Source: Hyunsoonleella pacifica
Lineage (GTDB): Bacteria; Bacteroidota; Bacteroidia; Flavobacteriales; Flavobacteriaceae
Assembly: GCF_004310335.1 (NCBI RefSeq)
Contig: NZ_SIRS01000001.1
Coordinates: 372,001 to 436,000, forward strand
Reading direction: 5' to 3'
DNA: 64,000 bases
The translations under genes and the position numbers were made by a program. Position 1 is the first letter of the stretch; each line of letters starts with the position of its first letter. The notes under the pieces were generated by a model. That model saw only the letters and a list, made by a program, of their open reading frames with translations, ran no database searches and was not told the origin of the DNA. This document shows, piece after piece, positions 19,439-46,425 of this stretch.

Positions 19439-19489
19439 ACAGGATGGAGCGTAACAGGATGGAGCATAACGGGTAGTGCAGGACACTCC
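19439..19489 (+). promoter_or_regulatory. Candidate HTCS operator array upstream of the second susC
   Basis: ACAGGATGGAGC occurs at 19439-19450 and again at 19454-19465 (15-bp period). A weaker third copy starts at 19469 (ACGGGTAG), and GCAGGACACTCC lies at 19478-19489. The last copy begins 28 bp before a -7-like box at 19506, the same spacing seen at other transcription units of the locus. I infer a binding array for the locus HTCS. It is the densest such array in the window, fitting its place before the transporter genes. Confidence 0.6.
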
Positions 19490-19505
19490 ATTAATTTTTA
19501 AGAAA

Positions 19506-19513
19506 TATTTTAG
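19506..19513 (+). promoter_or_regulatory. -7-like box of the second susC operon
   Basis: TATTTTAG matches TAnnTTTG at seven of eight positions and lies 28 bp after the start of the proximal GCAGGAC half-site. It leaves a leader of about 25 bases before ATG 19545. The match is imperfect and was chosen after noting the spacing. Confidence 0.4.
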
Positions 19514-19544
19514 GACTCTAATAAACAAATTTAACTTGAAATTT

Positions 19545-22500
19545 ATGAAACTAAAAACTAAACTAAATGAGACACCTAATTTCAGAGGAATTAGGTTGTT
19601 TACCATTTTCTTGTTTTCATGTGTAGCAATGTCATTTGCTCAAACTGTCAAAGGAACAGTTGTTGCAGATGGTCAACCGCTACCTGGAGCCACGGTAGTG
19701 GTAAAAGGAACGACAACAGGAACAAGTACAGATTTCGATGGTAATTATACCATTAATGCGAGTCCAGAAAGTACACTTGTATTTTCTTATGTGGGCTATT
19801 CTACAAAAGAAGTAGTAGTAGGAAGCCAAACTACTATTGATGTAGTTCTAGAACAAGACAACGCACTAGATGAAGTAGTTGTTATTGGTTATGGTACCCA
19901 ACGAAAGTCAGATTTAACAGGATCTGTATCTTCTGTAAGTTCAGAGGATATAGCAGCAGTTCCAGTTGCTAGGGTAGACCAAGCCTTACAAGGTAGAGCT
20001 TCAGGTGTACAGGTAACTCAGGTTAACGGTGCTCCAGGTGCGGGTACTGTTATTAGAGTACGTGGTGGTAACTCGATAACAGGTAGTAATGAACCACTTT
20101 GGGTTATTGATGGTATTGTAGTTGGAACAAACTTTAACTTAAATAACATTAATAGTAATGATATCAAATCTATTGAGATTTTAAAAGATGCATCGTCTAT
20201 TGCTATATATGGTTCTAGGGGTGCGAATGGTGTTGTTTTAGTAACTACAAAAAATGGTGCTGGAGCAGGAACTGGAAAACCACAGATTAGTGTGAATCTT
20301 TACACTAGTTCACAAATGCTACCAGAATTACCAGATAGGTTAAGCCAAAGAGAGCAAATAGAATTTAACAACGAAAGTGCACGTTTTAGATCGGCTGCAG
20401 AACCATTTCCAAATGATCCATCAACATATCCTGATAACGATTGGGTAGATTTAGTATTAGGAACTGCTCCAATTTATAACGCAGATGTTTCTGTTTCTGG
20501 CGCATCTGATAATGTTAATTATTATACATCGTTAAATTATTTCAATCAAGAAGGTATTGTAAAGAGTTCTGGTATTGAAAAATATATTTTCAGAACAAAT
20601 TTAGATCTTAAAATAAGTGATAAAGTAAAAACAGGATTTAGATTAAATTATTCAAGACTAGAACAAGATAATGCACTTGCGAGTTTTGGACAGGCTGCTT
20701 TTGGTATTGTTCGTACTCAACCAGCTTTTAATGACGATGGGTCTTTCAATGGTTTCAATGAAATAGTTGGGTCGCCATTCAATAATCCTTTAGCTGCTAT
20801 AGCCTTAAATACAAATGAAACCTTCACTAATAACTTGTTAGCAACGGTTTATGTAGAGTATAGTCCAGCACCAAAGTGGACTATCCGTTCAACATTTAGT
20901 CCAGAATTTAACAACACGAAGCGAAACAGATTTAGTTCTAGTCAACTACCTGGTTTACTGGCAATAGGAGATACTGGACAAGGAAGTGCTAGCGTTCGCA
21001 CCGTAAATAGTAATGGTTGGAACAATGAAAATACGATACAATACCAATCAGATCTTGGTGAAGATCATAGCATAACTGCTCTTGCGGGTGCGTCTTTTCA
21101 GAAAGTATCAACAGAAATAGCAGAGGCTGAAGCTTTTGGTATTACCAGTGATGCTACAGGGTTTAATAATTTAGGTAATTCAGATCCTACAAGATCAGTA
21201 GTAAGTAGTGACTTTACAGGGTTTCAAATCGCATCATTTTTTGGAAGATTAAATTACTCTTATAAAGATAAATACCTTTTAACTTTAGTTGGGAGAACAG
21301 ATGGTAGTTCTCGTTTTGCAGAAGGTAATAAATATGCGTTTTTCCCTTCAATAGCAGGTGCTTGGAAAATATCTGAAGAAGATTTTATGCAAGATCAAGA
21401 TATATTTCAAGACTTAAAATTAAGAGCAAGTTGGGGTAAATCAGGAAATCAAGCCATTGATCCATACAGTACATTTGGACTATTAACAGGAGCTAATACA
21501 ACACTAAACGGCGTGGAAGTACCAGGTTTAACTTTAGGTAGACCGTCAAACCCAAATTTACAATGGGAAACTACAAGTTCATTTGATATTGCGTTAGAAG
21601 CTTCTTTATTTGGAGGTAGAATATTTACAGAATTTAACTATTACTATAAAGAAACACAAGACTTGTTATTGGATGTTACAATCCCAAGACAGACTGGTTT
21701 TAATAGCCAATTACAAAATATTGGAGCTTTAAAAAATACAGGGTGGGAGCTTTTAGTGAATTCAACAAACGTGAGTACATCTAACTTTAATTGGAATTCT
21801 ACCGTAACATTATCAGCTAATAAGAATGAAATTTTAGACCTAGGAGGTGTAGATTTTATTGATATTGTCGCAGATCCTATTTTAGGTTCAGGTAATACGC
21901 GTTTAATTGTGGGAGAATCTGTTCCTGCTTTTACTGGAGTTAGATACCTAGGGACATGGAAAAGTCAAGCAGAGATTGATGCATCAGGTAGAACAGACCC
22001 TCAGGTTGTAGGAGGTTCACATTTTGAAGACTTTAATGGAGATGGTATTGCATCAACTGAAGATGCCGTAGTGTTAGGTAGTCCGTTTCCAGATTTAATC
22101 TTTGGAATTGAAAACAATTTTTCATACAAGAATTGGGATTTTTCTTTCTACTTTCAAGGAACTCAAGGAAACGAAGTATATAATTTGAACATGAGAAATA
22201 ATTATTTCAATAGAGGTGAGACTGTGAAGTTTGGAGATTTACGTAACCGTTGGACGGAAGATAACCCAACGTCTAATATTCCTAGAGCAGGAGCGGATTC
22301 TGTAACTAATACGCTACCTAACTCTGAATATGTTGAAGATGGATCTCATATTCGTTTGAAAACTGTACGATTAGCTTATAATTTTGATGTTGATAAAATG
22401 GGACTAAAAGGTATTAAAAATGCAACCGTTTATTTTTCAGGAACTAATTTGTTATTATTTTCTAAAACGAGACTGATAGATCCAGAAGCAAGTAATTTTG

Positions 22501-22586
22501 GTCGTGATAATATTTTACAAGGATATATTAGTGCCCAATATCCTAACCCAAGAGTTATAACACTTGGTTTAAATGTAACTTTTTAA
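19545..22586 (+). CDS. SusC-family TonB-dependent oligosaccharide transporter of the ulvan-type locus
   Basis: A 1013-residue protein from ATG 19545. A longer GTG start at 19476 would overlap the operator array and is rejected. The signal ends AMSFAQ, followed by the CarboxypepD-like domain (VKGTVVADGQPLPGATVVVKG), a TonB-box-like DEVVVIGYGTQRKSDLTG, plug motifs (VIRVRGGNSITGSNEPLWV, ILKDASSIAIYGSRGANGVV) and a barrel ending in VITLGLNVTF. It imports oligosaccharides across the outer membrane with the SusD partner 10 bp downstream. Surrounding ulvan lyases and rhamnosidases point to ulvan oligomers as cargo. The gene is followed, after susD, by a strong terminator. Confidence 0.94.
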   Translation: MKLKTKLNETPNFRGIRLFTIFLFSCVAMSFAQTVKGTVVADGQPLPGATVVVKGTTTGTSTDFDGNYTINASPESTLVFSYVGYSTKEVVVGSQTTIDVVLEQDNALDEVVVIGYGTQRKSDLTGSVSSVSSEDIAAVPVARVDQALQGRASGVQVTQVNGAPGAGTVIRVRGGNSITGSNEPLWVIDGIVVGTNFNLNNINSNDIKSIEILKDASSIAIYGSRGANGVVLVTTKNGAGAGTGKPQISVNLYTSSQMLPELPDRLSQREQIEFNNESARFRSAAEPFPNDPSTYPDNDWVDLVLGTAPIYNADVSVSGASDNVNYYTSLNYFNQEGIVKSSGIEKYIFRTNLDLKISDKVKTGFRLNYSRLEQDNALASFGQAAFGIVRTQPAFNDDGSFNGFNEIVGSPFNNPLAAIALNTNETFTNNLLATVYVEYSPAPKWTIRSTFSPEFNNTKRNRFSSSQLPGLLAIGDTGQGSASVRTVNSNGWNNENTIQYQSDLGEDHSITALAGASFQKVSTEIAEAEAFGITSDATGFNNLGNSDPTRSVVSSDFTGFQIASFFGRLNYSYKDKYLLTLVGRTDGSSRFAEGNKYAFFPSIAGAWKISEEDFMQDQDIFQDLKLRASWGKSGNQAIDPYSTFGLLTGANTTLNGVEVPGLTLGRPSNPNLQWETTSSFDIALEASLFGGRIFTEFNYYYKETQDLLLDVTIPRQTGFNSQLQNIGALKNTGWELLVNSTNVSTSNFNWNSTVTLSANKNEILDLGGVDFIDIVADPILGSGNTRLIVGESVPAFTGVRYLGTWKSQAEIDASGRTDPQVVGGSHFEDFNGDGIASTEDAVVLGSPFPDLIFGIENNFSYKNWDFSFYFQGTQGNEVYNLNMRNNYFNRGETVKFGDLRNRWTEDNPTSNIPRAGADSVTNTLPNSEYVEDGSHIRLKTVRLAYNFDVDKMGLKGIKNATVYFSGTNLLLFSKTRLIDPEASNFGRDNILQGYISAQYPNPRVITLGLNVTF

Positions 22587-22596
22587 AAAAAATAAT

Positions 22597-24180
22597 ATGA
22601 AAACAAAAAATTTAATTTTATACGTCTTTATAGCTTTTGCATGCTTTAGTTGTGAAAGTTTCTTAGAAGAAGACCCAAAAGCGCTCATTTCGCCTGAAAC
22701 CTTTTTCGCTTCAGAGAATGACGCAAGACAAGCAGTTCAAGGTATGTACGCCATTTTAAAGAACAATTCGTTATATGGGCAGGTAGGTCTAGATCATTTT
22801 TATGATAACGGTTGTGATATTATTGAGCCCAATCGTGCTGCAAATTTTGTTCAGCCAATAGGAAATTACACATTGAATGAAGCAATTGCTGATATATCTG
22901 TTCAAAAAATGAGTGTTTCAGATACTTGGAAAGACCTTTATAGAACAATACTAAATGCTAATGTAATTATAGAACGAGTAACAGATAATGAAGCAGTAGG
23001 TAGTGCAGATGTACGAACCGACATCATTGCTGATGCCAGATTTATTAGAGGTTTATGTTATTGGCACGTAACCAATCTTTGGGGAGATGCGCCTTATTAC
23101 ACTGAGGTACTTACGCTTGAAGAAATTAGCTCATTAGGAAGAACTGATGAGGCTACTATAATTGCTGGAGTTTTAGAGGATTTACAGTTTGCTCAAGACA
23201 ATTTGCAAGACGTTTACACGGGAGATCAAAGCGGTAGAGCTTCAAGATGGGCTGCAGCAATAGTTATAGCTAAAATTTACATGAAGCAACAACAATGGCA
23301 ACAAGGTTTGGATAAGTGTTTGGAAATCATAAACCAATCGCCTCATAGATTATTGGATACATATAATGAAGTATTCGATCAATTTAATGAGTATAATGAT
23401 GAAATTATTTGGTCATTAGATTTTGCTAGAGATATTAATAGTCAATTTGACCCAGCATTCCCAGGTAGATCATTCGCAGGTAATAATAACTGGCGTCCAA
23501 GTATGTTCAATCCTCGTTTAAGAGATGAGCCAGCAAATACAGATGAAAGAAGTGCATTAGGAGATGCTTTAGCAGCGAGGGGAGAAGCTTTTAATGGTAC
23601 TGGATTACAGGTGGCTTCTAAAGATTTTGCTGAGAAGTTCCCAATGAACGATTTAAGAAGAGAGCTAAACATAGTTGATAACTATTTAGGTTTTGACTTA
23701 AATTTCCCTTACATGGCAAAATTCTGGAATTTGGAGTTGGATAGATCTCCTCGTTTTAATCACTCTGATAATAGAATGGTGTTCCGTTTAGCAGACGTTC
23801 ATTTAATGGCTGCAGAATGTGAGAACGAACGCCCAGGTGGAAATCCAAATGCAGCTTTTGAGTATATTAGACAGATAAGAGAGCGTGCTTTTGCAACTCA
23901 AGGAGAAGCTGAGGCTATTTTAGGTCTAAGTCAGCAAGCTTTTAGAGAAGCTATTTATGATGAGCGTAAGTGGGAGTTAGCTGCTGAAATGCATAGACGA
24001 TATGATTTGATACGATGGGGTATTTTACTAGATGTTGTTCAGGATCTTGAATTTAGATTTTGGACTCCTGCAGACAATATAAGACCATATCATGTTTTAT
24101 TACCAATTCCTTTACAAGAGTTGGAAAATAACCCAGCATTATTGGAATCAGATCCAACAAATAATGGTTATAGAAATTAG
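22597..24180 (+). CDS. SusD/RagB-family glycan-binding lipoprotein
   Basis: A 527-residue lipoprotein (signal ending FACFSC, then ESFLEEDPKALISPETFF, the usual mature SusD start). Features include ARFIRGLCYWHVTNLWGDAPYY, WAAAIVIAKIYMKQQQWQQG and a C-terminal EAIYDERKWELAAEMHRRYD followed by LIRWGIL, the conserved SusD end region. It forms the surface lid of the importer with the upstream SusC. A Rho-independent terminator lies 33 bp after the stop, so susCD form a bicistronic unit separate from the GH3 gene. Confidence 0.94.
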   Translation: MKTKNLILYVFIAFACFSCESFLEEDPKALISPETFFASENDARQAVQGMYAILKNNSLYGQVGLDHFYDNGCDIIEPNRAANFVQPIGNYTLNEAIADISVQKMSVSDTWKDLYRTILNANVIIERVTDNEAVGSADVRTDIIADARFIRGLCYWHVTNLWGDAPYYTEVLTLEEISSLGRTDEATIIAGVLEDLQFAQDNLQDVYTGDQSGRASRWAAAIVIAKIYMKQQQWQQGLDKCLEIINQSPHRLLDTYNEVFDQFNEYNDEIIWSLDFARDINSQFDPAFPGRSFAGNNNWRPSMFNPRLRDEPANTDERSALGDALAARGEAFNGTGLQVASKDFAEKFPMNDLRRELNIVDNYLGFDLNFPYMAKFWNLELDRSPRFNHSDNRMVFRLADVHLMAAECENERPGGNPNAAFEYIRQIRERAFATQGEAEAILGLSQQAFREAIYDERKWELAAEMHRRYDLIRWGILLDVVQDLEFRFWTPADNIRPYHVLLPIPLQELENNPALLESDPTNNGYRN

Positions 24181-24247: not shown

Positions 24248-24249
24248 AT

Positions 24250-24295
24250 ACAAGACAGTTCAGGATAGGTAAAGGGTAAATATCTTTTAGATTAG
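24250..24295 (+). promoter_or_regulatory. Candidate HTCS operator and -7 box of the GH3 gene
   Basis: Two half-sites with a 10-bp period, ACAAGACAGT (24250) and TCAGGATAGG (24260), resemble the ACAGGAY repeat. TAGATTAG (24288-24295) lies exactly 28 bp after the second half-site and matches the -7 consensus at seven of eight positions. Confidence 0.5.
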
Positions 24296-24318
24296 TGGCC
24301 AAATACAAATTAAATCGA

Positions 24319-26496
24319 ATGAAGAATTCTGTTATTGCACTAGTTTTAATTAGTTTCTTATTTAAAAGTTGTCAATCCGAGACATCAACTTTAAAAGGAA
24401 AAGATAAAGATCAAGAAATAAATAAAAAAGTAGAAGCGCTATTAAGTCAAATGACCTTAGACGAAAAAATAGCAGAATTAACACAAGATGCACCTGCCAA
24501 TGAAAGATTAGGTATTCCATTTATGAAATATGGAGAAGCATTACATGGTTTATGGCTTGTTCTTGACTATTATGGCAATACAACTGTTTACCCACAAGCG
24601 GTGGCCTGTGCCTCAACTTGGGAACCAGAACTTATTAAAAAAATGGCGTCCCAAACAGCACTAGAAGCCCGGGCTTTGAATGTTACACATTGTTACTCTC
24701 CTAATTTAGATGTTTACGCAGGAGATGCCCGCTATGGTCGTGTTGAAGAATCCTATGGAGAGGATCCTTATTTGGTTTCGCGAATGGGTGTGGCATTTAT
24801 TCAAGGTTTACAAGGAACGGGTGATGAGCAATTTGATGAAAATCATGTGATTGCAACGGCCAAACATTTTGTTGGATACCCTGAAAATCGCCGTGGTATA
24901 AATGGTGGATTTAGCGATATGTCCGAACGTCGTTTGCGCGAGGTTTACCTTCCACCCTTCGAAGCTGCAGTAAAAGAAGCAGGGGTAGGTTGTGCTATGC
25001 CGGGACATCAAGATTTTAACGGGGTTCCATGTCACATGAATACTTGGTTGTTAAAGGATATCCTGCGAGATGAGCTAGGATTTGATGGTTTTATTGTTTC
25101 TGACAACAACGATGTGGGGAGATTAGAAACTATGCATTTTATTCCTGAAACCAGAACCGAAGCGGCTATTTTAGGTTTAAAAGCAGGTGTTGATATGGAC
25201 TTGGTAATAGGGAAGAATATTGATCTAGCAACCTATCATACTAATATTTTGAAGGATACAGTAATGCAGGATCCTGCATTGATGAAATATATAGACAAAG
25301 CCACATCACGTGTTTTAACCGCTAAATATAAATTAGGATTATTTGATTCAGAACCAAAAGAAATTGATGAAGAAACTGTAGAAGCTGGCACTGATGAGCA
25401 TCGTGAGTTTGCATTAGAAATTGCTGAAAAATCTGTTATCATGCTAAAAAATGATAATAAACTCTTACCTCTTGATGTATCAAAAATAAAATCCTTAGCT
25501 GTCATTGGCCCTAATGCACACGAAGAAAAACCTAAAAAAGGAACATATAAGTTGTTGGGGGGATATTCAGGATTACCACCATACTATGTTTCTGTCTTAG
25601 ATGGTTTAAAGAAAAAAGTAGGTAATAATGTAAAAATAAATTACGCTAAAGGTTGCGATATAGATAATTTTTCAAAAGACGGATTTCCCGAGGCTATAGC
25701 TGCAGCAAAAAAATCGGATGCTGTTGTTTTAGTTGTGGGTAGCTCTCATAAAACATGTGGTGAAGGTGGAGACCGTTCTAATCTTGATTTGTATGGCGTC
25801 CAAAAAGAACTAGTGGAGCTAATTTATAAAACAGGAAAACCTGTTATTGTTGTTCTAATTAACGGTCGTCCATTGAGTATAAACTATATAGCCGAAAATA
25901 TACCATCTGTACTAGAAACTTGGTATGGAGGCATGAGAGCAGGAGATGCTGTTGCAAACGTGATTTTTGGTGATATTAACCCAGGAGGTAAATTAACTAT
26001 GTCTTTTCCACGCTCTGTTGGGCAAGTTCCTGTAACTTATCTGGAGCGTCCTGACTTTATTGGATCTGGAAAAGGAAAGTATCGTTTTACTGATAAATCG
26101 CCCTTATTTCCATTTGGATACGGTTTAAGTTATACAACTTTTAAATATGGTGCCCCAAAGCTTGAAAAAGAAGCAATTCCAGTAGATAGTTCTACAACTA
26201 TTTCAGTGAACGTTACTAATACTGGAGATAGAGAGGGCGATGAGGTTGTGCAAATGTATGTTAGGGACGATTATGCATCTGTTGGTCGCTATCTAAAAAT
26301 GTTAAAAGGATTTGAGCGTATCACTTTAAAGCCGGGAGAAACTAAAAAAGTTACATTTAAAATAGGTTTTAACGAATTAAATTTATTAAACAGTGATATG
26401 CAAAAAGTTGTAGAGCCTGGAACTTTTACCATATCAGTAGGGGCTTCTTCCCTAGAAGAAGATTTACAAAAAGTAACATTAACAGTAAAAAGGTAA
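24319..26496 (+). CDS. GH3-family beta-glycosidase lipoprotein (likely beta-xylosidase or beta-glucosidase)
   Basis: A 725-residue lipoprotein (signal ending FLFKSC) from ATG 24319; a longer GTG start at 24295 would begin inside the predicted -7 box. The N-terminal barrel contains KHFVGYPENRRGINGG and the nucleophile loop GFDGFIVSDNNDV with predicted nucleophile Asp262. The (alpha/beta)6 domain (KSVIMLKNDNKLLPLD, VVVLVVGSSHKTCGEGGDR) and a C-terminal fibronectin-like domain (VNVTNTGDREGDEVVQMYVRD) complete the three-domain GH3 layout. Ulvan contains xylose, so beta-xylosidase activity is a reasonable inference, but GH3 specificity cannot be fixed by eye. It is monocistronic, between the susCD terminator and the next promoter. 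Confidence 0.9.
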   Translation: MKNSVIALVLISFLFKSCQSETSTLKGKDKDQEINKKVEALLSQMTLDEKIAELTQDAPANERLGIPFMKYGEALHGLWLVLDYYGNTTVYPQAVACASTWEPELIKKMASQTALEARALNVTHCYSPNLDVYAGDARYGRVEESYGEDPYLVSRMGVAFIQGLQGTGDEQFDENHVIATAKHFVGYPENRRGINGGFSDMSERRLREVYLPPFEAAVKEAGVGCAMPGHQDFNGVPCHMNTWLLKDILRDELGFDGFIVSDNNDVGRLETMHFIPETRTEAAILGLKAGVDMDLVIGKNIDLATYHTNILKDTVMQDPALMKYIDKATSRVLTAKYKLGLFDSEPKEIDEETVEAGTDEHREFALEIAEKSVIMLKNDNKLLPLDVSKIKSLAVIGPNAHEEKPKKGTYKLLGGYSGLPPYYVSVLDGLKKKVGNNVKINYAKGCDIDNFSKDGFPEAIAAAKKSDAVVLVVGSSHKTCGEGGDRSNLDLYGVQKELVELIYKTGKPVIVVLINGRPLSINYIAENIPSVLETWYGGMRAGDAVANVIFGDINPGGKLTMSFPRSVGQVPVTYLERPDFIGSGKGKYRFTDKSPLFPFGYGLSYTTFKYGAPKLEKEAIPVDSSTTISVNVTNTGDREGDEVVQMYVRDDYASVGRYLKMLKGFERITLKPGETKKVTFKIGFNELNLLNSDMQKVVEPGTFTISVGASSLEEDLQKVTLTVKR

Positions 26497-26522
26497 GAAA
26501 ATAAATTTTATTTTTTTAATAT

Positions 26523-26567
26523 ACAGGTTAGTACAGGACAGTCTACTTACTCAATTTTTATAATTTG
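26523..26567 (+). promoter_or_regulatory. Candidate HTCS operator and -7 box of the small T9SS protein gene
   Basis: ACAGGTTAGT (26523) and ACAGGACAGT (26533) form a clean 10-bp direct repeat. TAATTTG begins at 26561, 28 bp after the second half-site, resembling the -7 element with one spacer base missing. Confidence 0.55.
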
Positions 26568-26629
26568 TACAATAATTAGTCAATAATTGGCTAACTAAAA
26601 CTAAATATTAACGATTAAAACTAAAATTT

Positions 26630-27499
26630 ATGAAGAAAATTACTTTAAAAATTAGTGCATTTTTATTATTTGCTATGTTAGCGCTTCAAGTACACGCTCA
26701 ACCATGTCCTGAACTATGGAATGAGGCAGGTTCTTATAAGATTGCAGTATGTACTGATGGTGCTGATGCGTCAACCGAGCTTTATATGACCGTTAATGGC
26801 ACAACTGGTGACTTAGAATGGGCAGCGTTGTTACCGGGAGATGATCCAACACAAGTTTGGACAGTAAAAGATCATAGAGAGCCAGCTTCTAGTGGGTATG
26901 TCGAAATTTGGGCAACGGTTCCTGGTGTTGGAGATTTTACCATTGCTGTAGATCCATCAACTTTAGATGGATCTGGATCAGATACTGAAATCAAGCTTAC
27001 TCTTGTGCCTGGTCAGCCTGTAGGAGATAACACTGATCCGAACTATGGTTGGGACCAGTTTCAAAGAAGAAAATCGACAGGTTGGACCGGTTCTGGAAAC
27101 AATGCATTGTTTGCTAAACCTTCAAATTCACCTGGACAACAAGGAAACTTAAGATATAGAGACGCTCCATCTGCAGCAGGTGACCCAGTACTGTTTCAAA
27201 GTGGGGGGGCAATTAGCGCACTTCGATTCATTCTCGTATCTCCATTGAGCAACGAAGAATTTGATACAAGCTCAATCTTTATATCTAATCCAGTTAACAA
27301 CGAAATCAATATTAAAGGGCTTACTTCAAATGTTAAAGAAGTAATTGTGTACTCACTACTTGGACAAAAAGTATTGACTAAAGAAGTAAATACTCAATCA
27401 TCTCTTAGTTTAGATGCGAGTGCTTTAACAAGCGGTATGTATCTTGTAGAAATGAAAGGAGATAAAGGTTCATTTACTAAAAAGATTGTAAAGCAATAA
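26630..27499 (+). CDS. Small T9SS-secreted protein, candidate ulvan-binding module
   Basis: A 289-residue protein with a signal peptide ending QVHAQ, a ~190-residue Trp/Gly-rich domain (QVWTVKDHREPASSGYVEIW, LTLVPGQPVGDNTDPNYGWD, GNNALFAKPSN) and a 75-residue T9SS sorting domain (SIFISNPVNNEINIKGL to GSFTKKIVKQ). I find no catalytic signature and do not recognise the family. Its own operator/promoter, its terminator and its place just before the extracellular PL24-type lyase suggest abundant, co-induced secretion. A stand-alone carbohydrate-binding protein or a binding module separated from a lyase is plausible. A small lyase such as PL28 is possible but not supported by any residue I can point to. 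Confidence 0.6.
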   Translation: MKKITLKISAFLLFAMLALQVHAQPCPELWNEAGSYKIAVCTDGADASTELYMTVNGTTGDLEWAALLPGDDPTQVWTVKDHREPASSGYVEIWATVPGVGDFTIAVDPSTLDGSGSDTEIKLTLVPGQPVGDNTDPNYGWDQFQRRKSTGWTGSGNNALFAKPSNSPGQQGNLRYRDAPSAAGDPVLFQSGGAISALRFILVSPLSNEEFDTSSIFISNPVNNEINIKGLTSNVKEVIVYSLLGQKVLTKEVNTQSSLSLDASALTSGMYLVEMKGDKGSFTKKIVKQ

Positions 27500-27531
27500 T
27501 ATACAATACTTTTTTTAAATATTTTTTATTT

Positions 27532-27569
27532 AAAACATCCTATCTTTAATAAAGATAGGATGTTTTTTT
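27532..27569 (+). terminator. Rho-independent terminator, 16-bp perfect stem
   Basis: AAAACATCCTATCTTT (27532-27547) pairs perfectly with 27551-27566 across a 3-base loop and runs into a T tract. It ends the small T9SS protein unit. Confidence 0.92.
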
Positions 27570-27622
27570 ATCACTATTTACAAATGATTTTTCTAAACTA
27601 GAAACTAAAAAGTTATCATATT

Positions 27623-27937
27623 ATGAAAAGATTAGCTTTTAAAATGACATTAAATAAAGGTCAAAAAGAAGCCTATAAGAAGCGCCATGACGAATTATGG
27701 CCAGAGCTAAAGCAATTATTAAAAGATAATGGAGTAAGCGAATATTCCATTTTTTTAGATGAAGAAACCAGTACTTTATTTGCGTTTCAAAAAGTGAATG
27801 GTGAAGGAGGATCTCAAGACTTGGCTGATAATCCAATTGTGAAGAAATGGTGGGATTTTATGGCAGATATTATGAAGGTTAATCCAGATAACTCACCGGT
27901 TTCAACCCCATTAGAGGAAATATTTTTTCTAGAATAA
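27623..27937 (+). CDS. rhaM: L-rhamnose mutarotase
   Basis: A 104-residue cytosolic protein matching the family in length and motifs: KKRHDELWPELKQLLKDNG near residue 22, YSIFLDEETSTLFAF near residue 47, and the C-terminal KKWWDFMADIM. RhaM interconverts the alpha and beta anomers of L-rhamnose so that rhamnose isomerase can use it. Its presence among rhamnosidases shows that free rhamnose is an end product of this locus. It lies after a strong terminator and before the PL24 promoter, so it is transcribed alone; no ACAGGAY repeat or clear -7 box was found in the 53 bp before it. No rhamnose isomerase, kinase or aldolase genes are in the window. Confidence 0.93.
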   Translation: MKRLAFKMTLNKGQKEAYKKRHDELWPELKQLLKDNGVSEYSIFLDEETSTLFAFQKVNGEGGSQDLADNPIVKKWWDFMADIMKVNPDNSPVSTPLEEIFFLE

Positions 27938-27969
27938 TTACTTGTAAAAAGACAATTCTTAAAACGTCG

Positions 27970-28014
27970 TCAGCATACTACAGGATGCTTTTTTACTGAA
28001 ATTATATAAATTTG
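27970..28014 (+). promoter_or_regulatory. Candidate HTCS operator and perfect -7 box of the PL24-type lyase gene
   Basis: TCAGCATACT (27970) and ACAGGATGCT (27980) are in 10-bp register. TAAATTTG (28007-28014), a perfect TAnnTTTG, begins 27 bp after the second half-site. The TTG at 28012 lies inside this -7 box, so translation must start at ATG 28057. Confidence 0.6.
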
Positions 28015-28056
28015 TATATAGAAACACCTCTAAATAAGGTACTAAAAAGAAAAGCT

Positions 28057-30243
28057 ATGAAAAAAAAATACTCTCGAAAAAGGAGTTTATATAACTATGT
28101 ATTAATAGTTTTAGTGTTAACGTTTTCAGTTACTTTAAACGCTCAAGTTGTTTTAGAAACCGAAGTCAAGATTACAGATTTAGGTTTACATTTTAATGGT
28201 AGTAAGGTTGCAAATGGTACTTCAAATACTGGAGATGATGCAGCTTATGATTTTTTCTTTGGACGTAATATATCGGCACACGGTGATGCCATAAAAACCT
28301 ATGGTAATTATGTTTTTATGACTTGGTATCGTGGAGGTAAAGCAGACCGTCATGTTATGCTTACCCGTTACAATACAGTAACCGGTACAATGGCAACTAT
28401 AGAGTTTCCTCATAGGCATACAGGTTATCTAAATCAATACTGGATAGGAGAATCTCATAATACCATAGCTGTCGGTATAAGTCCTTTAGACGGAACAATT
28501 CATTTGTTGTACGATATGCATGCTTACAGTGCTTCAAGACCATCTAATGGAAGTCTAGCTAATGATTATTTTAGATATTCATATTCAGTTAAAGATGCAG
28601 CTTCGTTACCAGATGCTGATTTTACTTTGGATAAGTTTGTTCCAAATGGAACAGGAGGATATAAACATTTAAGAATGCCGGGAACTGCTGCTCAATCAGA
28701 ATTCGTATCATTAACCTACCCAAGATTCTTCCAAAATGATGGTGGAGAGATTTTTATGCTTATGCGTGAAGGTGGAAATAACAATGGTATGTATAAGTTT
28801 GTAAAATATGATGCCAATACAGGTGAGTGGGGTAACTTCATAGATTTTAATAGATTAAATGCAAGAAGTCAACCAGGGATTGATTATAATTGGGGACTTT
28901 ACGGTGATATGAAATACGTAAACGGTAAGTTTCGTATTGGTTTTCAACGTAGGTCTCAAAATAATGATGATAAATATCTTTACCAAAACGGAGTATATTA
29001 TGCCTATTCAGATGATCAAACGGCTGCCACGGGTTGGAAGAATTATAAAGGAGAATCTTTTAGTCTTCCATTATGGGATGCTGATTTTATAAAAGTCATG
29101 GAACCTGGAGATTACGTGGAGACAACAAATCCAAATAGAGTACATATTGTTGGTGGATTTGATTGGACGGTAACCGCCAATGGTGATGTACACATTAAGA
29201 GTCAGGTACGAGATTTAGATAGTAACGTAACTAAAAGCTTACACACCTACAAACCGGCAGGTGCTACAGAGTTTATAACTACAGAAAAATCTATAGCAGG
29301 TTCGTTTTACACATCAGGGGCTAATGTTTATGTAGTAGGCTTAAATAACGGTCGAGTTGTTGTAGACAAAGCTGAAGGTGGAACTGATAATTTTGAGAGG
29401 GTTTATGAGGCTACCAGTGGTAGACAGTATGATCACGGCGTTGTTCATATAGAAAATGGAAAAGCTTACTATTATTTGATGGAAGATAGTTCTGGTAATG
29501 CGCAGCCATTATATCTACAAGTCATAGATTTAGATATAGATCCAGTTGATCCTACGCTGCCAAATAATTTTACCATCCAAACCATTAGTGAGACATGTGT
29601 AGGTAAAAATAATGGTAAACTGGTTATTAATGCAGGGGCAGTTCATGATTATGCTACAACTATTAATGGTGTTGATTACAACTTTACTAAAGATGCCACG
29701 ATTGAAGGTTTGAGTCCAGGAACCTACGATTTTTGTATTGAAGTAGTAGGAGAAAATTATAATCATTGCTATGAAGTAGTAATTGATGGAGGAATTAATT
29801 TATCTGGTAAGATGCAAGTTGTTAAACAATCTTTAGAGGTATCTGTTGATGAGGGGGCTCCTCCTTACACGGTTTACAAAAATGGTACTCAAATTATGGA
29901 AACATATCAGTCCAAATTCTATGTGCAAGTAAACCATGGAGATAACCTAGTTGTAAAAAGTAAAGATGCGTGTCAAGGAGAAATGGTAAAAAATGTAAAT
30001 CTTCTTGAGGATATTAAGGCTTATCCAAACCCTTCTGATGGTGTATTTGAGATTTTTATGCCAAATAATTTAGATGCAGTAGATGTAGAAATATATAATA
30101 TCCATTCTCAGTTAATCGATGTGAAGAAATATCAGGCAAACTCTAGGAAAATGATATTGAATATAGAAGATAAACCTAACGGTATTTATTTTGTAAAAAT
30201 AAATGTAGAAAAGCCAGTATTTATTAAGTTAATAAAAAATTAA
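28057..30243 (+). CDS. PL24-type ulvan lyase, secreted by T9SS
   Basis: A 728-residue protein from ATG 28057 with a signal peptide ending TLNAQ. The ~500-residue N-terminal part is a BNR-type beta-propeller. In mature-start numbering, His134 (GESHNT) and His155 (DMHAYS) are 21 residues apart, and Tyr221 (LTYPRF) and Arg237 (LMREGG) are 16 apart. As I recall, these are the same spacings as His146/His167 and Tyr243/Arg259 of the PL24 ulvan lyase LOR_107. Ulvan lyases cleave the rhamnose-3-sulfate to uronate bond by beta-elimination. A ~130-residue linker/binding region follows, then a T9SS sorting domain (IKAYPNPSDGVFEIFM to VFIKLIKN), so this is the likely first, extracellular enzyme of the pathway. 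The next lipoprotein gene begins 1 bp after its stop. Confidence 0.85.
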   Translation: MKKKYSRKRSLYNYVLIVLVLTFSVTLNAQVVLETEVKITDLGLHFNGSKVANGTSNTGDDAAYDFFFGRNISAHGDAIKTYGNYVFMTWYRGGKADRHVMLTRYNTVTGTMATIEFPHRHTGYLNQYWIGESHNTIAVGISPLDGTIHLLYDMHAYSASRPSNGSLANDYFRYSYSVKDAASLPDADFTLDKFVPNGTGGYKHLRMPGTAAQSEFVSLTYPRFFQNDGGEIFMLMREGGNNNGMYKFVKYDANTGEWGNFIDFNRLNARSQPGIDYNWGLYGDMKYVNGKFRIGFQRRSQNNDDKYLYQNGVYYAYSDDQTAATGWKNYKGESFSLPLWDADFIKVMEPGDYVETTNPNRVHIVGGFDWTVTANGDVHIKSQVRDLDSNVTKSLHTYKPAGATEFITTEKSIAGSFYTSGANVYVVGLNNGRVVVDKAEGGTDNFERVYEATSGRQYDHGVVHIENGKAYYYLMEDSSGNAQPLYLQVIDLDIDPVDPTLPNNFTIQTISETCVGKNNGKLVINAGAVHDYATTINGVDYNFTKDATIEGLSPGTYDFCIEVVGENYNHCYEVVIDGGINLSGKMQVVKQSLEVSVDEGAPPYTVYKNGTQIMETYQSKFYVQVNHGDNLVVKSKDACQGEMVKNVNLLEDIKAYPNPSDGVFEIFMPNNLDAVDVEIYNIHSQLIDVKKYQANSRKMILNIEDKPNGIYFVKINVEKPVFIKLIKN

Positions 30244-30244
30244 A

Positions 30245-40987: not shown

Positions 40988-42028
40988 ATGATAGACCATA
41001 TAAAATTAGATGCAAATTCTATGGTGCCCAAATATTTGCAGATTATAAATTCTATAGTCTACAATATTTCTAATGGCAATGCCAAAATTGGAGATAAAGT
41101 ACCTTCAATAAATAAATTAAGTCAAGAGTTTTATTTGTCTCGAGATACAGTTGAACGAGCCTATAGAGTTTTAAGAAAACGTAAAATTATAGTTTCTGTA
41201 CAAGGTAAAGGAACTTACATTGCTAATACAGAGTTAATTTCAAAACTGAATGTTTTATTTTTTGTTAATAAATTGAGTCCATACAAAATGATGATTTATA
41301 ACTCATTTTTAAAAGAAATGGGAGATACATGTCATGTTGATTTACATAGCTATCATTGCGATGAAACACTGTTTTTGGAATTAATGACAAAGTATAAGAA
41401 CGATTATGATTATTATGTAATTGTACCACACTTTAGAACAGAAAATTTGTCTTACACAAATTTTACTAGTAAAGTGAGCGAAGCAATAAATGAGATACCA
41501 AAAGAAAGTTTAGTTCTATTGGATAGTAATAGTCATCAAATAGAAGGAGATTTTATAGAAGTATTTCAAGATTTTGAAAATGACATATTTACGGCGCTTG
41601 AAAAAGGCAAAGAGAAAATAGATAAATATAATAAGCTTACACTTGTTTATCCAAAAACATCATTTTATCCATATCCTAGAGAGATTTTAAATGGTTTCAG
41701 GAAATATTGTGCTAATTATAATTTTGATTTTGAAATAATTGAAGAGATTTCTAATGAATGTGTATTAGAAAAGAAGACCTTATACATTACTATAGAAGAT
41801 GATGATTTGGTACGTGTGATGCACCAAATTAAAGAAAGTAATTTTACATTAGGCAGAGATATCGGTGTTATATCTTATAATGATGCTCCCTTAAAACAAA
41901 TACTAGGAATTACTGTTATTTCTATTGATTTTAATGATATGGGGATACAGACAGCAAAAATGATTACTGAAAATAAAAAAGAAAAAGTGAAGGCACCTTT
42001 CTATTTTATGGATAGAGGTTCTGTTTAA
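40988..42028 (+). CDS. GntR-type HTH regulator with periplasmic-binding-protein-like sensor domain
   Basis: A 346-residue cytosolic protein. Residues ~8-75 form a GntR winged HTH (VPKYLQIINSIVYNI, DKVPSINKLSQEFYLSRDTV, IVSVQGKGTYIA). The remaining ~260 residues resemble a LacI/PBP-type ligand domain (TLVYPKTSFYPYPREILNGF, GRDIGVISYNDAPLKQILGI, VISIDFNDMGIQTAKMITEN). This combination is used by Bacteroidota sugar-responsive regulators. Its place in the locus, next to the HTCS, suggests it senses a monosaccharide product, perhaps rhamnose or xylose, while the HTCS senses an oligosaccharide. A terminator follows directly, so it is monocistronic. Confidence 0.88.
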   Translation: MIDHIKLDANSMVPKYLQIINSIVYNISNGNAKIGDKVPSINKLSQEFYLSRDTVERAYRVLRKRKIIVSVQGKGTYIANTELISKLNVLFFVNKLSPYKMMIYNSFLKEMGDTCHVDLHSYHCDETLFLELMTKYKNDYDYYVIVPHFRTENLSYTNFTSKVSEAINEIPKESLVLLDSNSHQIEGDFIEVFQDFENDIFTALEKGKEKIDKYNKLTLVYPKTSFYPYPREILNGFRKYCANYNFDFEIIEEISNECVLEKKTLYITIEDDDLVRVMHQIKESNFTLGRDIGVISYNDAPLKQILGITVISIDFNDMGIQTAKMITENKKEKVKAPFYFMDRGSV

Positions 42029-42237: not shown

Positions 42238-45200
42238 ATGAATTTTAGGTTGTTTTCTTTATTTTTCTTGGTTCATATTAGCGTATTATTTGCCCAGTTT
42301 GATAAATATAATTTTAGGACTATAAATATATCAGAAGGTCTGTCCAATAATACTGTTTCATCTATAGCACAAGATAAATTCGGTCAGTTGTGGTTTGGAA
42401 CAAGCAATGGTTTAAATAAGTATAACGGACAAGAATTTAAGGTCTACAGAAACATTTCTAGAGATAGGTATAGTATAAGTAATAGTGAAATATATGATGT
42501 TCTTGTGGATAAACAAGGTAATGTTTGGGCGGGTACTTTTAACGGCTTAAATAAGTTTAATCCAAAAACTAACACGTTTAGAAGGTATTATAGAAGAGCT
42601 ACAAATAAATTTTCTTTAAGCAATAGTTTAATCTTATGTAGTTTAGAGATGCCTAATGGTAGTATTTGGTTTGGAACTGGAAATGGAGTGTCTATTTATG
42701 ACCATAAGAAAGATAGGTTTAAACGTTTTTTACAAGGAGACTTTAAAAAAGGAATAATATCTATACATGATATTTATCGCGATAATGAACATAGAATTTG
42801 GCTAGCTACTAGTAATGGTATTGTAAAAGTAGATAGAGATGAAAATAAAAAGTTTGTTATTAAAAAATACACGATTGATACTAAAAATATAGATTTTACT
42901 GTAAATAGTATTTTAGAAGTATCCCCAGGAATTATTGGAGTAGGAACTCGATATAACGGATACTTTTACTTTGATATCAAAACCGAAAAGTTTACACGCT
43001 CAAAAGAAATTGATATACCCAACCTAGATGTAAGAGATCTTGAGTTAGATAATGATAAAAATTTATGGTTAGCTACTACTAGTGGGATTTTTATAATTAC
43101 TCCAGAAAAAGAGACTATACATATTAAAGAAAATAATGTTGAAAATTATGGTACAATTCAAAATTTTATTAAGAGTATTTACAAAGACAAAAATGGTTTT
43201 ATTTGGTTAGGTACTCAAAATGGAGGAATTATTACTTGGGATAAATCATACCAAAATTTTTTACACTTTAGCAATAATAATTTATCCAACAATATTACAA
43301 ATAGTATTGTGTCAGATAAAAAAGGCAATATTTACTTTGCAACAGAAGAAGGAGTAATAAACATAATAAATAAAAAGGGCAACGTTTCTGAAATATTTAA
43401 AATCCAGAGTTCAGAAAAAAATATTAAGTACCCTATAAAGTCATTATTTTTTAACACACCAGATAACTTATTATTTATTGGTACACAAAATAAAGGAGTC
43501 ATTGTTTTTGATGTAGAATCAAAAGAAATTCGTAAAGACCTTATCACAAAAGAGTTACAAAGTTTATTAGAAAATTCTATTGTATTAGATATAAAAAAAG
43601 ACTCAAAAAATAATTTACTTATAGGAACTTTAGGTCAAGGCCTTCTTCGTTATAGCTGTGAAACAAAAAAATTAAGAATATTTGCTAGAAACAGAATAGC
43701 AACAAATATTGTGAAAAGCATTTTTATAGACGAAAATGATGAGATACTAATTGGAGGCACTGGAGGAGCTTCAACAATAAAAATTAACGAGAAAGGAGTA
43801 GCTGATATAAAAAATTACTTTAAAGATAAACCACTAACCACATATAAAGTTAATGCAGTATTAAAAGATTCTAACGGAGTAATTTGGGCAGGAACTAAAA
43901 CAAGGGGATTATATAGCATTGAAGAAGGAAGAACAAAATCGATAACATTTGTTACTAGAAATAAGTTTTCTACAGTAAATTCAATATTAGAGGGAGAAAA
44001 AGGAGTTTTATGGTTAAGTACAGATAAGGGAATTATAAAATACAATTCCAATACAAATAAAAGTTCTTCTTACAACGATAACTTTACGAGAGTTAATAAT
44101 AATTTTACAGAAAATTCAGCTTTAAAAATTGAAAATCAGTTTTATTTTGGAGACTTATATGGAGTTACCACTTTTAATCAAAAAAAAATTATTAGAACTA
44201 AAGATGTACCCCAAGTAGTTTTGTCTGAATTAAAAATTAAAAATGAAGTAGTAGAAATAGAAGGAAATGATGGGGTATTATCTAAAAGTTTAAATTATAC
44301 AGATAAGTTAGAGTTAGATTATAGTAATTCTAATTTTTCTATAACTTATGCCTTGCCAAATTATATCAATTCAAAAAAGAATAAGTATGCATATCGTTTA
44401 AAAGGTTTAGATGATTCTTGGACATTTACAAAGCAAACGGAAGCATTTTTTACACTCCAAGACGCAGGTGAGTATACTTTTCAAGTAAGAGCAGCTAATC
44501 ATGATAATATTTGGGGAAGACGAATTACTAATCTTACAATTGTGGTGCATCCTGCGCCTTGGAAAACCTGGTGGGCATATACGATTTATTTTCTGTTTGC
44601 TTTTGGTATTCTATATGGTATTACTTGGATGCTTCAATCCAAATCAAGACTAAAAAATAGACTAGAATTAGAGTCTCTGGAAAAAACGAGAAATATTGAA
44701 TTAAATAAGACTAAACTTCAGTTCTTTACAAATATTTCTCATGAATTTAAAACACCTTTAACCTTAATTTTAGGTCCAATTCAAAATATTTTAGAGAATT
44801 ATTCAGGATCTAACACAACTTACAAACAACTTAAAGTTGTAGAAAGTAATGCAAATAGGTTGTTAAGGCTCATAAATAGATTAATGGATTTTAGGAAATT
44901 GGAAAGTAATCAATTAAAACTATCCGCAGCAGAGGGAAATATTGTTAAATTTTTACAAGAAATCTTCTTGTCTTTTACAGAACATGCTAAAAATGGTAAA
45001 TATAATTATGAGTTTTATAGCACAGATGATGAAATTCTTGTTTACTACGATAGATATAAATTAGAAAGGGTTTTCTATAATTTAATATCAAACGCTTTTA
45101 AATACACAAATAAAGGAGAAGACATTAGTGTAAATATTTACAAGGAAGAACATAATCTTGTAGTCGAGGTAAAAGACTCAGGGGATGGTATTCCAGAGGA

Positions 45201-46290
45201 ATATTTAGATAAGATTTTTGATCGTTTTTTTGAAATACCAATAACCAATGATACAGAAGAGGAGTATAGAAAAGGAACGGGAATTGGTTTATCCATAGCA
45301 AGTAATATAGTTAAGTTACACCACGGTGAGATATTTGCCAATAATTTAAAACCAAATGGCTCAATTTTTACCGTAAAATTAAAATTAGGAAAGGCGCATT
45401 TATCAGAAAATGAGATACTGGAGAATTTTAAAATGAGTGATGATGTATCTCAATATGTTTCACAAATTAATGTAAAGGATTTAAAACTACCAAGTGCTCC
45501 TGAGGATTTACTTTTGGAAAATAAAAAATATACTATTCTTGTTGTTGAAGATAATGCTGTACTAAGATCATTTATTAAGGAAATATTGAGGACAAACTAT
45601 AACGTTATTCAAGCAGAAAATGGAAAAGTAGCGTTTGAAAAAGCTTTAAAGTATTTACCTGATTTAATTATTAGTGATGTGATAATGCCAAAGATGGTAG
45701 GGACTGAACTTTGCTCTAAAATAAAGACAACCTTGGCAACAAGCCATATACCAGTTATTCTTTTAACATCTAGATCTTCATTGATTTATAAATTTGAAGG
45801 GTTAGAAAGTGGTGCAGACGATTATATTAGTAAGCCTTTTAATTTAAAAGAATTCAGTCTTAAAATTCATAATTTACTAGAATCTAAACAACGGCTCAAA
45901 GATAAGTTTGCTTCTAATGAAAATTTTTCTTCAGTAGATGTATCCTTAACATCACTTGATGAACAATTATTAAAAAAGGCTTTTAAAATTGTAAAGGATA
46001 ACATATCAAATCAGGATTTTAATGTCGCTCATTTTTCAGAGGAATTGGGAGTAAGTCGATCTATGCTTTTTACAAAAATAAAAGCTTGGACAAATTCTAC
46101 TCCTAATGATTTTATTCAAGAAGTAAGGTTAAACCGTGCAGCTAAATTATTAGAGCTGAATAAACTTAATATATCTGAGGTTTCTTATGAGGTAGGGTTT
46201 AAAAGACCAAAATATTTTAGCCAATGTTTCCTGAAAAAATATGGAATGACACCATCAGAATTTTTAAAAAAAATCAAGAGTGTTGACTAA
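42238..46290 (+). CDS. Hybrid two-component system (HTCS) sensor/regulator
   Basis: A 1350-residue single-chain system. Order: signal peptide (LFAQ); two beta-propellers of ligand-binding repeats (QDKFGQLWFGTSNGLNKYNG and many copies, residues ~25-690); a Y_Y_Y-type domain (~700-770); one membrane span (~777-800, WWAYTIYFLFAFGILYGITW); HisKA with His835 in FTNISHEFKTPLTL; HATPase (DSGDGIPEEYLDKIFDRFFE, GTGIGLSIA); receiver domain with phospho-acceptor Asp1147 (LIISDVIMPK); and a C-terminal AraC-type HTH (~1250-1345). HTCS proteins bind an oligosaccharide in the periplasm and activate the cognate locus. Its AraC domain should contact two half-sites about one helical turn apart, matching the 10-bp ACAGGAY repeats nearby. 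Confidence 0.96.
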   Translation: MNFRLFSLFFLVHISVLFAQFDKYNFRTINISEGLSNNTVSSIAQDKFGQLWFGTSNGLNKYNGQEFKVYRNISRDRYSISNSEIYDVLVDKQGNVWAGTFNGLNKFNPKTNTFRRYYRRATNKFSLSNSLILCSLEMPNGSIWFGTGNGVSIYDHKKDRFKRFLQGDFKKGIISIHDIYRDNEHRIWLATSNGIVKVDRDENKKFVIKKYTIDTKNIDFTVNSILEVSPGIIGVGTRYNGYFYFDIKTEKFTRSKEIDIPNLDVRDLELDNDKNLWLATTSGIFIITPEKETIHIKENNVENYGTIQNFIKSIYKDKNGFIWLGTQNGGIITWDKSYQNFLHFSNNNLSNNITNSIVSDKKGNIYFATEEGVINIINKKGNVSEIFKIQSSEKNIKYPIKSLFFNTPDNLLFIGTQNKGVIVFDVESKEIRKDLITKELQSLLENSIVLDIKKDSKNNLLIGTLGQGLLRYSCETKKLRIFARNRIATNIVKSIFIDENDEILIGGTGGASTIKINEKGVADIKNYFKDKPLTTYKVNAVLKDSNGVIWAGTKTRGLYSIEEGRTKSITFVTRNKFSTVNSILEGEKGVLWLSTDKGIIKYNSNTNKSSSYNDNFTRVNNNFTENSALKIENQFYFGDLYGVTTFNQKKIIRTKDVPQVVLSELKIKNEVVEIEGNDGVLSKSLNYTDKLELDYSNSNFSITYALPNYINSKKNKYAYRLKGLDDSWTFTKQTEAFFTLQDAGEYTFQVRAANHDNIWGRRITNLTIVVHPAPWKTWWAYTIYFLFAFGILYGITWMLQSKSRLKNRLELESLEKTRNIELNKTKLQFFTNISHEFKTPLTLILGPIQNILENYSGSNTTYKQLKVVESNANRLLRLINRLMDFRKLESNQLKLSAAEGNIVKFLQEIFLSFTEHAKNGKYNYEFYSTDDEILVYYDRYKLERVFYNLISNAFKYTNKGEDISVNIYKEEHNLVVEVKDSGDGIPEEYLDKIFDRFFEIPITNDTEEEYRKGTGIGLSIASNIVKLHHGEIFANNLKPNGSIFTVKLKLGKAHLSENEILENFKMSDDVSQYVSQINVKDLKLPSAPEDLLLENKKYTILVVEDNAVLRSFIKEILRTNYNVIQAENGKVAFEKALKYLPDLIISDVIMPKMVGTELCSKIKTTLATSHIPVILLTSRSSLIYKFEGLESGADDYISKPFNLKEFSLKIHNLLESKQRLKDKFASNENFSSVDVSLTSLDEQLLKKAFKIVKDNISNQDFNVAHFSEELGVSRSMLFTKIKAWTNSTPNDFIQEVRLNRAAKLLELNKLNISEVSYEVGFKRPKYFSQCFLKKYGMTPSEFLKKIKSVD

Positions 46291-46379
46291 TTAAAGCATT
46301 TTTATATTTAGGATTACAAATTTGTGTATTAAGCCTTTTTAATCAAATGGTTCTAGTTTTATATACCATATAGTATGGC

Positions 46380-46425
46380 ACAGGACACAACAGGATTATT
46401 TATAGAGTTTTAAAAGTTAAGTTTG
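46380..46425 (+). promoter_or_regulatory. Candidate HTCS operator and perfect -7 box of the GH2 operon
   Basis: ACAGGACACA (46380) and ACAGGATTAT (46390) form the best 10-bp direct repeat in the window. TAAGTTTG (46418-46425), a perfect TAnnTTTG, begins 28 bp after the second half-site and 28 bp before ATG 46446. The operator thus occupies the -33 region, as expected for an activator-dependent promoter. It probably drives the whole run from GH2 to the right edge. Confidence 0.65.

Follow-up and report, generated by a model that had tools for sequence, protein, structure and literature searches.

An operator of 10-bp direct repeats at ulvan-type promoters of Hyunsoonleella pacifica and its probable link to GntR-LacI-type regulators of rhamnose utilization

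The stretch of Hyunsoonleella pacifica DNA analysed here (the window; 64,000 nt, contig NZ_SIRS01000001.1, positions 372,001 to 436,000) contains an ulvan-type locus, in which six promoters carry units of a short direct repeat, CAGGAY, spaced as a rule 10 bp apart and placed at a nearly constant distance from a -7-like box. Judged from sequence comparisons, the repeat is probably the operator of a rhamnose-type regulon, bound by a GntR-LacI chimera, which would activate the ulvan genes via the head-to-tail repeats. The wider proposal is favoured by us by a small degree: that one operator code of a cytoplasmic GntR-LacI chimera runs the whole ulvan pathway of Flavobacteriaceae, surface lyases and SusC/D as well as the catabolism of rhamnose and uronates, sensing a monosaccharide end product, probably L-rhamnose, and that the hybrid two-component system (HTCS) regulator encoded in the window is a late addition or has another target. 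In the following, G000 is the genome of the window, C1, C23 and C32 are its contigs, and other G numbers denote relatives.

Read directly from the sequence, a CAGGAY-type proximal unit with a -7-like box 27-29 bp downstream was present at all six promoters for which the initial annotation had described ACAGGAY-like half-sites with this spacing, i.e. those of susC, GH3, a small protein sorted by the type IX secretion system (T9SS), a BNR_4/PL24-type protein, GH78 and GH2 (Table 1). The second half-site claimed 10 bp upstream at four of these was likewise seen, with six of six CAGGAY letters in GH2 and five of six in the T9SS, GH3 and PL24-type promoters; GH78 has four of six. In susC, the upstream unit ACGGGTA is 9 bp from the proximal one and two more perfect copies, 15 bp apart, precede it; the GTG start given by the open reading frame (ORF) finder at 19476 overlaps the operator, and ATG 19545 is the likelier start. 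The peptidase locus does lack the repeat, as no intergenic site was found in a scan of window positions 1-19 kb.

Enrichment over shuffled background, the comparison suggested in the initial annotation, was pronounced. Nine CAGGAY copies fall in six of nine intergenic regions tested in the window, and all six have a loose box (TA, one or two bases, TT) at offset 27-29 from the proximal unit. Over 1000 dinucleotide shuffles, the averages for copies, regions with copies and regions with box were 0.37, 0.37 and 0.04 (maxima 4, 4 and 2).

For the anatomy of the operator, intergenic NCAGGAY sites with at least four of six letters in the unit 10 bp upstream were collected from 2.05 Mb of loci without use of the box, resulting in 188 sites, or 179 from 15 genomes once near-identical ones were removed. 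The conserved block is CAGGAYAGT-ACAGGAYAG at positions -9 to +8, its six upstream letters deriving partly from the selection. At unselected positions, T+28 was found in 154, A+29 in 160, T+32 in 151 and T+33 in 169 sites, and G or A+35 in 78 and 68. TAnnTT was located at offset 28 in 123 of the 179 sites, at 27 in two and at 29 in five, with a mean of 3.4 and a maximum of 12 for other offsets. Since these unselected data peak at offset 28, the worry over weak, hand-picked -7 boxes is answered. Of 153 sites picked solely for their proximal unit and box, 105 had at spacing 10 a distal unit with at least five of six letters (next best 18); spacing 20 occurred in four, and 21 was not among the eight commonest. 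A separate -33 element was not apparent in the 179-site alignment, and a 21-bp repeat within the operator was ruled out, as nothing beyond -9 to +8 is conserved except the -7 box.

Transcription in Bacteroidetes usually starts 12-14 bp after the -7 box. The centre of the unit pair, about 28 bp before the box, would therefore lie near -41 if this distance applies, a position typical of class II activators. A repressor would have no need of a fixed distance to the box, so that this feature is not easily reconciled with one.

The initial annotation was right in describing a shared operator with rigid spacing that defines a regulon, though not in its size, which is about 28 promoters in two clusters and not six. 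In the 4.13 Mb genome, CAGGAY-N4-CAGGAY had 12 exact matches in 10 places (three forming one tandem array; reversed control 2), all within two ulvan-gene clusters at C1:285-436 kb, window included, and C32:115-169 kb. The figure of about 28 includes weaker pairs in the C1 and C32 stretches and was obtained from 27 + 10 rows, omitting array-overlap units (C1 354054, 354064, 355810, 418380 and 436193; C32 168591) and three doubtful rows (C1 274901; C32 76523 and 188537). The operator-led genes encode four PL28 ulvan lyases and two GH106 enzymes, GH78, GH2, sulfatases, a sulfatase-GH78 fusion and a 3-keto-disaccharide hydrolase, and furthermore a short-chain dehydrogenase/reductase (SDR), an alpha/beta-hydrolase-like protein, the regulator GntR3, SusC, rhaEW, and proteins without Pfam match. 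The SDR is of mannonate oxidoreductase type and adjoins KduI and UxuA. Outside the clusters, a one-mismatch site (C23:36668) lies ca. 200 bp above a PL28 gene (C23:35700-36464), and G009 has an exact isolated site (C2:95586) before a PL28 gene (C2:94604-95368); for the PL28 gene at C1:831994 of H. pacifica, no such site was in the genome-wide operator list.

The search of orthologous loci, also suggested earlier, found the operator on homologous promoters of relatives. The susC core site is retained in G002, G005 and G007, the GH3 pair is near-identical in the same three, and the BNR_4/PL24-type operator is conserved in G002, as is the GH78 proximal unit in G002, G008, G055, G005 and G056. At the GH2 promoter, G002 and G008 have the two units together with the box, and G010 and G055 the proximal unit with the box. 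For 17 of the 26 operator-led genes, an operator-bearing homologue (best hit, at least 45% identity) was present in at least one of the relatives G005, G009, G056 and G081. These four genomes contain 9, 8, 6 and 12 exact operators, respectively (reversed controls 2, 3, 1 and 2), of which 9, 4, 5 and 11 are inside the examined clusters.

The same four relatives speak against the HTCS at 42238 as the regulator, to which the initial annotation had attributed the operator, as they carry the operator on homologous promoters without the clade of that protein. With four candidates scored per genome, the clade (45-68% identity) was found in 11 of 149 genomes besides its own (G001, G002, G006, G007, G008, G010, G011, G013, G022, G055 and G082; a relative in G021 has 42%). 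In the four relatives no HTH (helix-turn-helix) match exceeded 39% identity to the HTCS, versus 49-81% inside the clade, and members were absent from the 140, 160, 180 and 180 kb around the operator clusters of G005, G009, G056 and G081. The GH2 promoter of G005 still retains both units and the TAAGTTTG box. Other HTCSs are carried by these genomes, one of them, 27% identical, at G009:C7:367133-371032. By this distribution, the HTCS appears to be dispensable for retention of the operator in relatives.

The operator accompanies instead GntR2, a regulator gene divergent from the rhamnose catabolic operon. GntR2 with at least 74% identity was found in exactly 13 of the 149 genomes (G000, G002, G005-G011, G013, G055, G056 and G081), which together hold 112 exact operators (control 17). 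Of 18 GntR2-type loci, 11 have a strict site near the GntR gene or rhaEW and G001 a weak one; a nineteenth examined locus, in G082, held a GntR3 relative. Among 397 genomes of the family, 79 have a GntR2 homologue, and in the best 30 of these 79 an intergenic operator lies within 700 bp in 21 (reversed control 1). In the best 80 of 436 GTDB relatives, the operator is within 700 bp of the homologue in 63 (reversed control 2/80), including loci of Zobellia, Arenibacter, Maribacter and many Flavobacterium, F. johnsoniae strain CI04 among them. The rhaEW promoters have unit and box within 200 bp in 65 of 95 cases (control 3); the 30 misses are all Flavobacterium-type loci, each with a site near the GntR gene at -202 to -672. 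The operator is thus on a rhamnose catabolic promoter, as expected of a rhamnose regulon.

Adjacency to GntR2 extends to genomes without PL28 lyases. PL28 was present in all five operator-rich genomes searched (seven in G000, and two each in G005, G009, G056 and G081), and in none of 13 other genomes with a GntR2 homologue (G060, G061, G012, G041, G086, G072, G001, G022, G191, G197, G305, G386 and G325). A strict operator stands beside the GntR2 homologue in 12 of these 13, with a weak one in G001; therefore, the GntR2-adjacent site is independent of the PL28 family.

In the window itself, the gene of the paralogue GntR1 precedes that of the HTCS. In Pfam searches GntR1 matched GntR (PF00392) with 44.9 bits (cut-off 27) and Peripla_BP_3 (PF13377) with 26.5 bits, at cut-off. 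The AlphaFold model (mean pLDDT 87.2, pTM 0.73) had its best Foldseek matches in RbsR/LacI proteins (best E 1.7e-13), and its N-terminal domain matched GntR structures, including AraR. GntR1 and GntR2 share 52% identity over their length and 59% across the DNA-binding domain; both have the stretch SRDTVE, which lies in helix 3 of the winged HTH (GntR1 model residues 52-64). On account of this homology and fold, the window itself holds a plausible binder beside the HTCS. GntR2 matched NCBIfam GntR models only below cut-off, its DNA-binding domain being assigned also by alignment and its sugar domain by full-length alignment only; in the adjacent rhamnose operon, rhaEW was above the NCBIfam cut-off, and the isomerase and kinase matches were below theirs. 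The operator-led GntR3 has both PF00392 and PF13377 above cut-off and adjoins KduI, UxuA, mannonate oxidoreductase and a TRAP transporter. GntR3 was rejected as universal binder, as G013 and G056, both with operators, gave no match at E 1e-80.

In the mechanism that we propose, a GntR-family regulator with LacI-like sugar domain would bind two, sometimes three to five, of the 10-bp units head to tail. Candidate binders, perhaps each at different promoters, are the paralogues GntR1, GntR2 by the rhamnose operon, and possibly GntR3. The proximal unit would cover the place of the -33 element, with the pair centred roughly at -41 from the transcription start, and the regulator would activate the promoter in the presence of rhamnose or one of its breakdown products. 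As rhaEW is the shared target, the effector is likely to be rhamnose or an intermediate. rhaEW would also be the likely ancestral target, from which the operator may have spread in ulvan degraders to lyases, rhamnosidases, sulfatases, SusC/D and uronate genes.

Several observations weigh against this mechanism. Sugar-responsive GntR regulators are mostly repressors, and activation from direct repeats of 10 bp would be out of the ordinary. The operators of GntR proteins are in most cases palindromic (PMC4494728, from the sections available), and the site associated here is a 10-bp direct repeat, if association means binding. The GntR1 gene has no operator in front of it. The 136 genomes outside the GntR2 set exceed control as well (124 versus 30 exact operators), G022 and G082 have seven and six operators with GntR2 at just 67% and 63%, and G106, G133 and G147 have 11, 8 and 6 matches scattered over their genomes, which disturbs a clean split. 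A site of the required strength is missing from six of the 18 GntR2-type loci (G147, G093, G013C30, G013C5, G008C1 and G008C15) and from nine of the 30 family loci, four of the latter having a relaxed site within 4 kb. The 80 GTDB loci are not independent, because many close Flavobacterium loci are among them. The PL28 search covered that family only, so that other ulvan lyases may occur in the PL28-negative genomes, one of which, G022, has several operators and a clade A HTCS. Moreover, because GntR2 usually adjoins rhamnose genes, a target in common could account for the adjacency without GntR2 being the binder.

Table 1. Positions of operators, -7-like boxes, candidate regulators and operator-led genes; plain numbers refer to the window, C numbers to contigs of the same genome.
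Feature	Position	Strand	Remarks
susC operator	19439..19486	+	CAGGAT copies 19439, 19454; ACGGGTA 19469; proximal GCAGGAC 19478
susC -7-like box TATTTTAG	19506-19513	+	28 bp after proximal unit
GH3 operator ACAAGACAGT-TCAGGATAG	24250..24268	+	proximal TCAGGAT 24260; upstream ACAAGAC
GH3 box TAGATTAG	24288	+	offset 28; probable start ATG 24319
Small T9SS-sorted protein operator ACAGGTTAGT-ACAGGACAG	26523..26541	+	proximal ACAGGAC 26533
Small T9SS gene box TAATTTG		+	one base fewer; offset 28
BNR_4/PL24-type operator TCAGCATACT-ACAGGATGC	27970..27988	+	proximal ACAGGAT 27980
BNR_4/PL24-type box TAAATTTG	28007	+	offset 27
GH78 operator TCGAGATACA-GCAGGATAC	31268..31286	+	proximal GCAGGAT 31278
GH78 box TAATTG		+	weak; offset 29
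GH2 operator ACAGGACACA-ACAGGATTA	46380..46398	+	proximal ACAGGAT 46390
GH2 box TAAGTTTG	46418-46425	+	perfect; offset 28
susC/susD pair	19476..24180	+	led by susC operator
GH3, T9SS small protein, rhaM mutarotase, BNR_4/PL24-type, FN3 protein, GH78	24295..34147	+	operator-led genes and intervening ones
GntR1	40988..42028	+	GntR winged HTH and LacI/RbsR-like sugar domain (AraR-type chimera); candidate binder in the window
HTCS	42238..46290	+	Reg_prop, Y_Y_Y, HisKA, HATPase, REC, HTH_18; candidate regulator of the initial annotation
GH2	46446..49496	+	led by 46380 operator
GntR2	C1:443475-444533		divergent from rhamnose catabolic operon; paralogue of GntR1
GntR3	C32:168675-169673		operator-led; PF00392 and PF13377 above cut-off

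Other assignments of the operator were weighed against the GntR-LacI chimera. It is improbable that both regulators act, the GntR protein being the ancient owner and the HTCS, in genomes with clade A, B or C, joining at the same promoters via extra sequence such as the 15-bp spaced CAGGATGGAGC copies above the susC operator. The two extra copies in the window, which are similar in G002, and the HTCS genes in or near the clusters agree with such a scheme; a single extra copy is present in G007, which has clade B alone, and just the core site in G005, which lacks the clade, a pattern that fits either way. The CAGGATGGAGC copies (19439-19468; reduced in G005 and G007) are a possible second input at susC.

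About equally improbable is a regulator encoded elsewhere, i.e. an unlinked protein of AraC, DeoR or OmpR/PhoB type. A dimer of OmpR/PhoB type would suit nearly identical boxes of 7 bp repeated every 10 bp, and this repeat architecture speaks for the idea; however, in none of six genomes searched did an OmpR-type gene (PF00486, Trans_reg_C) lie inside the clusters, and an OmpR/PhoB-type regulator was rejected on this ground. An AraC gene lies between two operator sites at C1:292312, and HTH_18 matches occur near operators in G009 and G007, but the clusters of G005, G056 and G081 gave no HTH_18 match, and this gene was rejected likewise. DeoR-type rhamnose motifs have a 10-11 bp periodicity, according to the available text of PMC3870299. 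In most of the 18 rhamnose loci examined, the gene next to the site is that of the GntR protein, which speaks against any unlinked regulator.

Still less probable is that the HTCS at 42238, together with its paralogues B and C on C32 (47% and 42% identity), binds the repeat, its two units being contacted by the pair of HTH motifs in a single AraC-type domain. The HTCS gene does sit among operator-led genes, all genomes found with a clade A HTCS (G000, G002, G006, G008, G010, G011, G013, G022, G055 and G082) have exact operators, and paralogue C is inside the second operator cluster, paralogue B being ca. 28 kb outside its exact operators. Against this stand the operators in G005, G009, G056 and G081, which lack clades A, B and C, and those beside GntR2 in genomes without PL28. 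As four relatives have 6-12 exact operators without its clade, the HTCS was rejected as sole binder. An HTCS gene in the locus is what an HTCS regulon would have, but neither a repeat spacing of ca. 21 bp nor an operator confined to genomes with the clade was found; in published HTCS regulons the repeats lie on average 21 bp apart (PMC3878776, as far as its accessible part goes). Furthermore, the susC gene directly beside HTCS B has no CAGGAY operator in G000, nor did an alignment of the susC promoters beside HTCS B, inspected by eye for a further conserved direct repeat, reveal a CAGGAY pair. That the repeats are chance products or a mobile repeat without regulatory role, as the multi-copy tandem forms at C1:354044 and in a Maribacter metagenome-assembled genome (MAG) might hint, is hardly credible given the rigid -7 box spacing, the intergenic placement and the conservation in diverged promoters.

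That susC gene (C32:79294-82329) has upstream two to three TGGTNNACCA palindromes, 13 bp apart, at C32:82440-82453, which lie directly after TATATTTG in G000, G007 and G055 and have a variant form in G008. They look like a separate GntR/LacI-type repressor site. As the site of the GntR chimeras they were rejected, since they were at few promoters only, and at none in the examined stretches of G005, G009, G056 and G081. In G022, the gene of the clade A HTCS (C18:91022-95071) has one in-frame TAG and is possibly broken.

Further features were observed in and around the clusters. Four tandem 10-bp units (CAGGATACTG) stand before a PL28 protein at C1:354038-354073, and the Maribacter MAG has about five units near its GntR2 homologue. 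The operator at C1:334787 precedes a PSCyt1/PSCyt2/PSD1/DUF2231 gene, which is followed by two conserved genes without NCBIfam match at 1e-10; by virtue of this operator, the PSCyt1/PSCyt2/PSD1 gene and the next two may belong to the ulvan pathway. Conserved proteins of ca. 640 amino acids are encoded in the ulvan clusters at C1:290399-292315 and C32:116878-118800; the former is operator-led, has no Pfam match at 1e-5, and is a candidate new ulvan enzyme. Within the ulvan-type locus of the window, a Pfam Alginate_lyase (PF05426) protein at 49614-50786 has no operator seen before it and is probably co-transcribed with GH2.

The usual view is that outer signals, acting via HTCS, SusR or sigma/anti-sigma systems, switch on the polysaccharide loci of Bacteroidota. 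If the GntR-LacI chimera is indeed the binder, ulvan degradation would be induced by released rhamnose inside the cell, and models of who profits from secreted enzymes on green-algal blooms would have to change. With the operator, members of the ulvan pathway can be predicted from sequence alone, among them genes of unknown function and isolated lyase genes outside the clusters; it also offers a candidate rhamnose-inducible promoter for use in marine and soil flavobacteria. A further lesson is that closeness to an HTCS gene should not decide to which regulator an operator is assigned.

Among the matches listed in open-licence PMC literature, no report of the operator or of a GntR-type rhamnose or ulvan regulator was met. 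For the ulvan loci of Formosa agariphila, abstract text (PMC6168547, PMC8511951) names ulvan lyases including PL28, and the literature search found no operator or transcription factor for these loci. In comparison with Bacteroides HTCS regulons, the system has likewise a direct-repeat operator common to the promoters of a polysaccharide locus and an HTCS gene in the locus. The Bacteroides operators are direct repeats averaging 21 bp centre to centre, attributed to dimers of AraC-type HTCS (Ravcheev et al. 2013, PMC3878776, in its available portion), unlike the 10-bp repeat here, which persists without the HTCS clade. Known regulators of rhamnose utilization are of AraC, DeoR and LacI type in the text available from Rodionova et al. 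(2013, PMC3870299), where the word GntR occurs 0 times and the Bacteroidetes lineage listed is Bacteroidales; the regulons described share with ours a rhaEW-containing operon under a local regulator and, for the DeoR type, the periodicity mentioned above. Direct-repeat operators are recorded exceptions in the GntR family, i.e. NagQ, NanR, FarR and the MocR-type GabR, TauR and PdxR (Suvorova et al. 2015, PMC4494728); in the part of that survey at hand, they differ from ours in subfamily and sequence, none of the examples has to do with rhamnose or ulvan, and one Bacteroidetes factor is tabulated. A parallel in architecture is AraR of B. subtilis. AraR reportedly binds palindromes. Unlike AraR, which is named a repressor in PDB, the candidate regulators here are associated with direct repeats at an activator-like position; like AraR (PDB 4egy), they combine a GntR winged HTH with a LacI/RbsR-like sugar domain and have sugar catabolic genes as targets.

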